64,000 nt of DNA, from contig NZ_CP042345.1 of the NCBI RefSeq assembly GCF_007954425.1, positions 2,292,001 to 2,356,000 of the forward strand, written 5' to 3'. Each line of letters starts with the position of its first letter. Within the stretch, counting starts at the first letter, position 1. This document shows positions 31,067 to 33,471 of this stretch, piece after piece. The position numbers and the translations under genes were made by a program. This DNA comes from Novosphingobium ginsenosidimutans. GTDB lineage: Bacteria > Pseudomonadota > Alphaproteobacteria > Sphingomonadales > Sphingomonadaceae. A model generated the notes under the pieces. It was given only the letters and a program-made list of their open reading frames with translations, searched no databases and was not told where the DNA came from.

Positions 31067-31471
31067 CTATCCGGCGTTCGCCACGCGGATGATCCCGCCA
31101 ATCAGCGAGCCGAGCACGAAGATGTAGATCGGCGGCATCGAGATATAGAGCGGGATCAGCCGCTTCTCGGCCGCCTTGTGATAGCCCAGCGCATAGAGCA
31201 CCCGCATGAACGGCCAGATCGCGCCGATCCCGGCCGCCCACACCGGGCTGACGACAAAGGCAAACAGCCACAGGCCGGGCAGGAACAGCGCCAGGTGTTC
31301 CAGGGTGTTCTGGTGCGCGCGGACATAGCGTTCATACTCGGGCGGCCCGCTGTGCGACGGTGGCTCGATCTTGAAGCGCCCCCGCGCCAGCCCGGCCATC
31401 AGCAGGGTGAAGTAATAGGCCAGCAGCGCCAGCGCGCTGACGATCACGACATAGCTGTAAGGATCGGTCAT
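31067..31471 (-). CDS. MAPEG family membrane protein
   Basis: A 134-residue integral-membrane protein with four hydrophobic helices, as in MAPEG proteins (membrane-associated glutathione and eicosanoid metabolism). The family segment with an arginine/asparagine pair is YERYVRAHQNTLEHLALFLP. It may act as a microsomal-type glutathione transferase, consistent with gor and a GST in this window, but many bacterial members have no known substrate. ATG 31471 is preferred to a TTG 33 bases upstream. It lies 77 bases downstream of the bciA-like gene on the same strand. Confidence 0.85.
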   Translation of the reverse strand: MTDPYSYVVIVSALALLAYYFTLLMAGLARGRFKIEPPSHSGPPEYERYVRAHQNTLEHLALFLPGLWLFAFVVSPVWAAGIGAIWPFMRVLYALGYHKAAEKRLIPLYISMPPIYIFVLGSLIGGIIRVANAG

Positions 31472-31548: not shown

Positions 31549-32490
31549 CTAGAAGACTGCGTGATCGCCTCGCTCAACCTGTTCGGTGCCATCGATCAAC
31601 CGGCGGTAATAGTCGAACAGCAGGTCGCTGCCGGTCGCGGGGGTGGCCTCGGCGTCATAGCGCCCGGTGGCGGGATCGCGCACCAGCATCGATTCGGTCG
31701 CATAGTAACGGCCGATCCGGGCAAGATCAGCCTTGCGGGCCGCCGCGGGCAAGACATGGCCGAGCAGGCTGAGCAGCGCGATAATGGCGTCGAGCACTTT
31801 GACCGAGACGTGGCGAAAGCGCGGCGGCTGGCCCAGCAGCCGGAACAGCGCCTCGCCCTGATCACGCGGGGTTATCGCAGGACCGGGGCCGCCGATTGGA
31901 AGGATGCGGTTGTGGCGGCCCGGGTCCGTCACGCAATCGGCCAGGAAGGCGCCCAGGTCGCGGTCGCTGATCGGCTTGCAGGCGGTCAGTCTGCCATCGC
32001 CAAACACCAGAAAAGGCTTGCCTTGCCGCACCCGCTCGACCTGGCCTGACAGCGACTTGAAGAACGCGGTCGGCCGGACGATCGACCAGGTCAGGCCCGA
32101 TGCGATCAGCGCTTGTTCAAAGGCCAGTTTGGCGTGCTGGAACGCCAGCAGCGGCTTTTGCACGCAGATCGCCGAGAGCAGGATGAATTGCGGGATGCCA
32201 GCCTGCTGCGCGGCGGCGAGCGCTGTCATATGCGCGCGGTAATCGATCGCCCAGGCATCGTCCGGACTGCCCGTGCGCGAAGCGAGGCAGGACAGCACGG
32301 CATCGAAGCGCTCGCCCCGGATGCCGTCGCGGCTGAGCCAGTCTGGGTCGGTCGGATCGCCCACCCGGACGGTCGCGCCTGCCAGGGTATCGATTTGGCG
32401 CCGGCTGAGGCAGACCACCCTGTGTCCGCGCCCCAGCAGCGCCTGCACAGTCGCGCGGCCGATCGTACCGGTCGCACCCAGCACAAGCAC
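31549..32490 (-). CDS. bciA: Divinyl (proto)chlorophyllide 8-vinyl-reductase, BciA type
   Basis: NADPH-dependent atypical SDR that reduces the 8-vinyl group in bacteriochlorophyll synthesis. The 313-residue protein has the Rossmann motif LVLGATGTIGRATV, then the run VRPTAFFKSLSGQVERVRQG, GDGRLTACKPISD, PIGGPGPAITPRDQGE and PATGRYDAEATP, which I know as the core of BciA proteins. The GTG start has no Shine-Dalgarno. The frame stays open with protein-like sequence for about 50 codons upstream without ATG, GTG or TTG, so the true N-terminus is uncertain (for example a rare ATT at 32550). No other photosynthesis gene lies in this window. Confidence 0.8.
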   Translation of the reverse strand: MLVLGATGTIGRATVQALLGRGHRVVCLSRRQIDTLAGATVRVGDPTDPDWLSRDGIRGERFDAVLSCLASRTGSPDDAWAIDYRAHMTALAAAQQAGIPQFILLSAICVQKPLLAFQHAKLAFEQALIASGLTWSIVRPTAFFKSLSGQVERVRQGKPFLVFGDGRLTACKPISDRDLGAFLADCVTDPGRHNRILPIGGPGPAITPRDQGEALFRLLGQPPRFRHVSVKVLDAIIALLSLLGHVLPAAARKADLARIGRYYATESMLVRDPATGRYDAEATPATGSDLLFDYYRRLIDGTEQVERGDHAVF

Positions 32491-32697
32491 GCGCCGGCCG
32501 GATCGGTCCGCTTCGCTCTGGCCTGCCGATTGGTTTGGAGTGTCCGGAATAACTGCTGCCCGCGCTTGTTTTGCCGATTGATCGGACCAGCCGGTCGGAT
32601 CGTCAACTCCGATCTTGGGCGGCCTATCTCAACCGCCAGTGTTCCTTCGGTCGGCCCAGACTAAACCCCCACCGATAGCGGCGCAGAGGAGCAGGCG

Positions 32698-33471
32698 ATG
32701 GGCATTCTCGACAAGTTTCGGCTCGATGGCCAGGTTGCGGTGGTGACCGGGGCCGGCAAGGGGATCGGGCGGGCGATCGCGCTGGGCCTGGCCGAGGCGG
32801 GGGCGGATGTGGCGGTGGCCTCGCGCACCCAGGCCGATCTCGATGCCGTGGCGGCGGAAATCCGGGCGCTGCGGCGGCGGGCGTTGCCGCTGGTGACCGA
32901 TGCGACCGATGCCGCCGCGCTCGAGCGGCTGGCGGCGGAAACCGTGCGCCAGCTCGGCAAGCTGACGATCTGGGTCAACAATGCCGGCGGCATCCCCGAT
33001 GGCACGCCGCGCTATCTGACGCGCACTTCGGAGGACAGTTTCGACGCGCAGATCGCGCTAAACCTCAAGGGCGTCTGGCTGGGCGCGACCATCGCCGCGC
33101 GGGCGATGAGCGCCGATGGCGGGGCGATCATCAACATCTCCTCGCGCTCGGCCTATGGCCCGCAGGTGAAGAACGGGCCCTATGGCGCGGCCAAGGCAGC
33201 GGTGAACAGCCTGACGACCACGCTGGCGGTGGAAGTGGCGCCGAAGATCCGCGTCAATGCCGTCGCGCCGGGACCAATCCCGACCGAGAACTTCGACGAT
33301 TGCATGGGCACCGACACCGAGGAAAAGCGCGCCAAGCTGCTGGAGATGATCGGCATCCCGCTGGGCCGCTATGGCGAGCCAGAGGATATCGCCGCAGCCG
33401 TGGTCTACCTCGCCTCGCCCGCCTCAAGCTGGGTGACGGGGCAGTGCCTTTATGTCACCGGCGGCCGCTGA
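32698..33471 (+). CDS. Short-chain dehydrogenase (FabG/hydroxysteroid-dehydrogenase-like)
   Basis: A 257-residue classical SDR with all catalytic parts: cofactor motif TGAGKGIGRA, NNAG in VNNAGGIPDG, Ser in NISSRSAYG and the YxxxK pair in PYGAAKAAVNS, ending VTGQCLYVTGG. It resembles 7-alpha-hydroxysteroid dehydrogenase and FabG-type 3-oxoacyl reductases; the substrate is undetermined. The ATG follows GGAGCAGGCG. It is convergent with aroB with a 17-base overlap. Confidence 0.88.
   Translation: MGILDKFRLDGQVAVVTGAGKGIGRAIALGLAEAGADVAVASRTQADLDAVAAEIRALRRRALPLVTDATDAAALERLAAETVRQLGKLTIWVNNAGGIPDGTPRYLTRTSEDSFDAQIALNLKGVWLGATIAARAMSADGGAIINISSRSAYGPQVKNGPYGAAKAAVNSLTTTLAVEVAPKIRVNAVAPGPIPTENFDDCMGTDTEEKRAKLLEMIGIPLGRYGEPEDIAAAVVYLASPASSWVTGQCLYVTGGR

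Follow-up and report, generated by a model that had tools for sequence, protein, structure and literature searches.

Does a lone gene that resembles an 8-vinyl reductase mark its host as a phototroph, and from which codon is it translated? Both questions are raised by a gene on the minus strand of a 64,000 nucleotide stretch of the Novosphingobium ginsenosidimutans genome (contig NZ_CP042345.1, positions 2,292,001 to 2,356,000; termed the window here), which an original prediction had called a BciA-like reductase of bacteriochlorophyll synthesis. The frame is open from stop to stop between positions 31549 and 32628 of the window (359 codons). Its longest open reading frame (ORF) with an ATG, GTG or TTG start covers 31549-32490 and encodes a protein of 313 amino acids (aa), with the GTG start lying at the first Rossmann strand. 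The translation of this ORF contains all four segments on which the prediction was based (RPTAFFKSLSGQ, GRLTACKPISD, PGPAITPRDQGE and TGRYDAEATP). Judged from its sequence, the gene can be assigned with high confidence as the bciA of a phototroph from the Sphingomonadaceae, its predicted product being an atypical short-chain dehydrogenase/reductase (SDR) and most likely an NADPH-dependent C8-vinyl reductase. The BciA call was borne out by orthology in sequence and tree, by the fold and by co-occurrence with the reaction centre, and is further supported by a photosynthesis cluster at another place in the genome and by no BciB-like gene being found there.

Identification of the gene product as BciA

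Pfam searches of the product (threshold 0.001) gave NAD_binding_10 (2.5e-22), Epimerase and NmrA only, with no FrhB or FdhB domain, and the dinucleotide-binding motif GATGTIG was identified at its N-terminus. Over its full length of 313 aa, the protein was found to share 68% identity with P0148, a cluster from Cereibacter sphaeroides subsp. megalophilum named divinylchlorophyllide 8-vinylreductase, and the SDR make-up of BciA from the Cereibacter (Rhodobacter) sphaeroides group (PMC4214422) is alike. The BciA proteins of R. capsulatus and R. sphaeroides are reported to be 61% identical (PMC4214422). At least 120 homologues were found in a large protein database (8000 candidates scored), at 70-98% identity among the matches listed, and for many of those listed the name given in the source is divinyl chlorophyllide a 8-vinyl-reductase. 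This number of homologues, together with the identity to the C. sphaeroides-group enzyme, excludes a chance frame. Paralogous matches within the same genome reached 33% and 31% identity with partial coverage of the query.

A tree had been proposed as a check on the prediction. In a tree of 59 rows (40 fetched loci, 17 proteins and the two paralogues), the window gene was placed inside the BciA group and not among unrelated SDRs, in a clade of 11 rows (support 100/92) that adjoins P0010, P0011 and L120; 11 of the 14 rows of the genus lie on other branches. A structure model of a 333-aa version of the protein (mean predicted local distance difference test score, pLDDT, 87.5) displayed an atypical-SDR fold. 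Among the chains compared, after the Foldseek ranking was re-examined, the closest solved folds were those of eugenol synthase, complex I NDUFA9, pinoresinol-lariciresinol reductase and QOR2. The 50 matches listed in this comparison include no BciA-named entry, and a sequence search of the PDB returned 13 sequences at 0.01, again none with a BciA name. Eugenol synthase, pinoresinol-lariciresinol reductase and NDUFA9 are SDRs that act on other substrates and are 18-21% identical to the window protein. A general SDR unrelated to pigment was ruled out as a candidate by the tree, the 68% identity and the distance of other SDRs.

Phototrophic gene content of the host and location of bciA

The genome consists of one contig of 3,118,872 bases and is 100% complete. 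The prediction had proposed a whole-genome search for pigment genes, and puf and bch genes were found to be present in a cluster at C1:1,827,853-1,865,612. Genes named there with NCBIfam were bchI, bchD, bchC, bchX, bchY, bchP, bchF, bchN, bchB, bchH, bchL and bchM, along with pufL, pufM, pufC, puhA, acsF and 5-aminolevulinate synthase (20 frames scanned, two of which matched nothing). The bchI match (466.2 bits) lies slightly below its cut-off of 466.95. Two LH1 antenna genes (pufBA) were identified in the cluster with Pfam, and bchZ was located at 1,838,680. As pufL and pufM are intact, lost phototrophy was ruled out. The prediction had offered either an aerobic anoxygenic phototroph or a recent loser of phototrophy; the first half of this stands and the second falls, the host being by its gene content a potential aerobic anoxygenic phototroph.

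Between tRNA-Leu and the photosynthesis cluster (G000:C1:1815687-1827813, loci L086-L087), a D12 DNA methyltransferase, frames of low GC content at third codon positions (GC3) and a resolvase were observed, and this stretch resembles a mobile island bordering the cluster. Two separate reaction-centre gene pairs (four PF00124 matches in two places) were observed in each of four genomes belonging to one genus (G006, G100, G162 and G211).

It had also been said that bciA stands apart from any photosynthesis cluster. This is true, with 481,810 bases separating it from pufM, yet such a location is usual and not odd. Among the 20 family genomes carrying both genes on one contig, this one included, the distance was at most 30 kb in 4 and above 100 kb in 16 (a hand-made table that ignores circularity and leaves out the 8 of 28 both-gene genomes with the genes on different contigs). 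In Rhodobacter sp. CZR27, bciA is likewise away from pigment genes, lying on an 860-kb replicon with sox genes on one side and benzoate genes on the other. This genome was taken as an anchor from a plasmid collection (72,556 records, 3 with a match at 1e-30), the only use made of that collection.

Co-occurrence of bciA with the reaction centre

Genomes were surveyed with a threshold of E 1e-50 for the presence of bciA. Within a family sample of 298 genomes, bciA was identified in 31 and the reaction centre, above its cut-off, in 55, a 56th candidate (G118; 19.1 bits, contains stops) having been dropped. Both were present in 28 genomes, bciA only in 3, the reaction centre only in 27 and neither in 240. 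The corresponding numbers for a genus sample of 195 genomes, which has at least 6 genomes in common with the family sample, were 29, 4, 6 and 156. One of the genus genomes with the reaction centre only (G477) carries a cut-off piece of bciA. Among the seven genomes with bciA only, G428 encodes BchZ, G022 has a partial BchZ below the cut-off, G063, G365 and G454 encode AcsF, and G371 is 83% complete. A literature search combining bciA, photosynthesis gene cluster and sphingomonad found no paper.

Several points weigh against the identification. The 68% identity is to P0148, the representative of a 90% cluster bearing a BciA-type name and not a characterised sequence itself. Four NCBIfam matches to the product include no BciA model, the best reaching 25 bits where the cut-off is 400, and no curated cut-off was passed. 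The link with the reaction centre is not absolute, the 27 family and 6 genus genomes noted above having a reaction centre without bciA at 1e-50. Lastly, family genome G033 (one contig, 99% complete) has an intact bciA (G033:C1:2570034-2570978; L100/L159), while the reaction centre, BchZ and AcsF were not found in it; G033 may have lost its cluster, may be missing a plasmid or may use BciA otherwise.

G033 also lends something to the view that the window gene is a leftover from lost phototrophy, or else a general SDR outside pigment synthesis, as does the fact that no pigment gene is named beside bciA. Against this stand the photosynthesis cluster of the host itself with its intact pufL and pufM, a bciA frame that is open and conserved, the strong co-occurrence with the reaction centre and the distance of other SDRs, and such an explanation is considered very improbable.

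Proposed function and other 8-vinyl reductases

The preferred reading, a BciA of pigment synthesis, would have the enzyme convert the C8-vinyl group of 8-vinyl-chlorophyllide a into an ethyl group, most likely with NADPH, in a step that would come before the chlorophyllide reductase encoded by bchXYZ. We infer the substrate, the use of NADPH and a partial redundancy with chlorophyllide reductase by analogy with published work on C. sphaeroides and R. capsulatus. As chlorophyllide reductase, too, is reported to reduce the vinyl group in Rhodobacter species (PMC4214422, PMC4432870), loss of bciA may not block pigment formation.

BciB, an FrhB-type 8-vinyl reductase, is described as catalysing the same reaction (PMC4214422), with a protein unrelated to BciA. 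The single FrhB-type gene of the genome was located at C1:2,930,761 among neighbours which, judged from their sequences, resemble exosortase and capsule-export genes. When its product is compared with the FrhB-type protein of G157, a phototroph that has no bciA, identity is only 23% across 189 residues. A BciB-like second reductase was rejected on account of this apparent polysaccharide-export setting and the weak likeness to the phototroph-type protein, and for the same reasons BciA is likely to be the dedicated 8-vinyl reductase of the genome.

No BciA was found at 1e-50 in 13 genomes with a reaction centre (G003, G057, G101, G171, G173, G219, G251, G289, G305, G309, G327, G347 and G471), G251 giving only a weak match of 5.6e-11 in an alignment search at 1e-10. 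These 13 also yielded no FrhB match of the span seen in 19 other phototrophs without bciA. FrhB matches of a different span were present in G003, G057, G101 and G219, and G471 is 87% complete. These genomes may rely on chlorophyllide reductase alone.

The start codon of bciA

The function of bciA is ordinary, and only its start codon is unusual, a modest curiosity. The original prediction had described an odd start, with a GTG directly at the Rossmann motif, no Shine-Dalgarno sequence and protein-like sequence continuing upstream without ATG, GTG or TTG, and the odd start was found to be real. Upstream of the GTG, the frame is open for 46 codons without any of these codons (32628 to 32490). 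P0148, in contrast, has an annotated Met and a 12-residue tail before the first strand. The gene end given in the prediction, 32550, falls on the start of an in-frame ATT (32550-32548) situated 20 codons before the GTG that its text names, which is at 32490. Two minus-strand start candidates were considered, the ATT (32548-32550), from which the gene covers 31549-32550 and encodes 333 aa, and the GTG (32488-32490).

A promoter-like pair, TTGACG and GATCAA separated by 17 bases, lies on the minus strand at 32578-32606, and transcription may start from this element (TTGAC-17-GATCAA). The spacing is kept in Novosphingobium sp. UBA6722 (TTGACC-17-GATCAA). The pair is below threshold in a consensus promoter scan, and because that scan gave 0 sites, it is the conservation in two genomes that suggests a promoter. 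The PpsR-like pattern is TGT-N12-ACA; 3 such sites were found in the window against 4.3 expected, none near bciA. Over the 87 bases from the -10-like hexamer to the GTG, no ATG, GTG or TTG occurs in any frame.

Anti-Shine-Dalgarno pairing was weak and badly spaced for both candidates (-2.9 kcal/mol at -17 for ATT, -5.4 at -19 for GTG). Predicted RNA accessibility was 0.62 for ATT versus 0.37 for GTG, and 0.32-0.37 versus 0.22 in the other genome, with the transcript start assumed; this difference in favour of ATT is too small to decide. Depletion of start codons in the bciA tail was examined as evidence and found to be uninformative, 26 of 59 other tails also being without start codons. In the model of the 333-aa version, residues 1-13 are predicted to be disordered (pLDDT <50) and the first strand covers residues 20-24, the GTG corresponding to residue 21.

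The closest relative available as DNA is bciA of UBA6722 (L006, the same as L119 and L158), which is 84% identical and has the same ATT, GTG, promoter-like spacing and divergent SDR neighbour. Its ATT is positioned 16 codons before the GTG; compared with the window, it has 12 additional bases upstream of the ATT and 12 fewer downstream, and its usual in-frame start codons occur only about 60 codons or more upstream. UBA6722 is a draft genome (83% complete) in which the reaction centre, BchZ and AcsF were not found. A second family sample gave no further DNA of the clade (7 of 397 genomes matched at 1e-140), the two new ones among these, G503 and G534, being at 71-72% identity.

Starts were then surveyed in 133 distinct loci, with two more skipped as the motif was missing. 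In 17 of them, the stretch from -4 to -35 codons holds no usual start; 12 of the 17 have one at -2 or -3. The window gene, L119, L051, L106 and L121 had none within the 45 codons scanned. An ATG within 35 codons is present in 99 loci, and in 18 of these the nearest such codon precedes the Rossmann strand by just 2-3 codons; a very short tail at the N-terminus is thus nothing foreign to the BciA family. In the genus members L133, L135, L137, L140, L141, L143, L146 and L147, the nearest ATG is 3 codons before the strand and reads ATGA, with an overlapping TGA in another frame, as in translational coupling.

Initiation at AUU 32550 would be near-cognate, as in infC, and the product would resemble most orthologues in having a disordered tail; this tentative reading is held at somewhat below even. 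The ATT is conserved in UBA6722, and its residue falls in alignments where orthologues have their annotated Met (MPDT, MTD, MSE; for example MPDTAPTPRR in P0162 against IPDTPNQ... here), and clade proteins P0005 and P0009 have I-P-D-[ST] at this place. Annotated tails of 10-20 residues are usual (151 of 231 listed proteins with the motif). Between the window and UBA6722, the 8 codons after the ATT show 1, 2 and 5 differences at first, second and third positions, a coding-like pattern (29, 33 and 116 in the 313 codons of the gene body), and the 5 codons before it, unlike those after, differ 0, 2 and 1 times; yet these counts are tiny and come from two genomes. Furthermore, the likeness extends upstream of the ATT in L006, P0005 and P0009, the annotated Met of clade member P0003 is elsewhere, 14 residues before strand 1, the long tail is dispensable in the genus, a Shine-Dalgarno sequence is absent, and near-cognate starts are reported to be rare (PMC5472188). 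Precedents given in the same source are infC (ATT) and Streptomyces sigR (GTC). A literature search on the bciA start codon returned BciA papers which, in the text available, apply such wording to other genes.

Initiation at GTG 32490, by which the protein would be tailless, is held at close to even. The GTG is kept in the window and L119, is not preceded in the window by a canonical start of any frame once the putative -10 hexamer is passed, and would cost the model only the first residue of strand 1. Six more proteins of the 11-row clade (P0001, P0002, P0004, P0006, P0007 and P0008) are annotated from this residue, even though only 24 of the 133 loci have GTG at that position. These annotations are gene-caller placements and thus weak evidence, however, and the codon at this place is ATG or TTG in 0 of 133 loci. 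The GTG too lacks a usable Shine-Dalgarno sequence, and the start-free leader is not special, given the other tails described above and one start-like codon in L006. Since an ATG just before the Rossmann strand is found among the loci surveyed and the tail is predicted to be disordered, the AUU and GTG starts are regarded as about equally likely, and the data do not decide between them.

Another bciA without an upstream in-frame ATG, GTG or TTG was observed at L106 (G091:C1), where, upstream of the minus-strand match 1190312-1191133, an in-frame ATA lies 5 bases after GGAGG (pairing -11.5 kcal/mol) and overlaps an out-of-frame ATG AAA TAG. Near-cognate bciA starts may have arisen more than once, the in-frame AUA of G091 lying behind a strong Shine-Dalgarno sequence.

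Neighbouring genes

The divergent neighbour of bciA (32698-33471, plus strand) encodes a classical SDR (adh_short_C2), with the same N-terminus and the same divergent place in UBA6722 (L158). The downstream neighbour (31067-31468, minus strand) encodes a MAPEG-family membrane protein and shows no sign of a role in pigment synthesis.

Implications for phototrophic sphingomonads

A lone bciA far from the photosynthesis genes correctly predicted a host bearing the cluster, and the gene can thus serve as a marker where a sphingomonad genome is fragmentary. Of the seven genomes with bciA only, five carry BchZ (partial in one of them) or AcsF, and a sixth is 83% complete. Should the AUU start prove true, bciA would offer a rare case of a near-cognate start conserved in a metabolic gene; gene callers would then be cutting it short throughout the lineage, and its expression would depend on IF3. 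That one lineage of sphingomonad phototrophs translates bciA from a conserved AUU, tying pigment maturation to IF3 as infC is in E. coli and sigR (GTC start) in Streptomyces, is a conceivable though rather doubtful extension of this.
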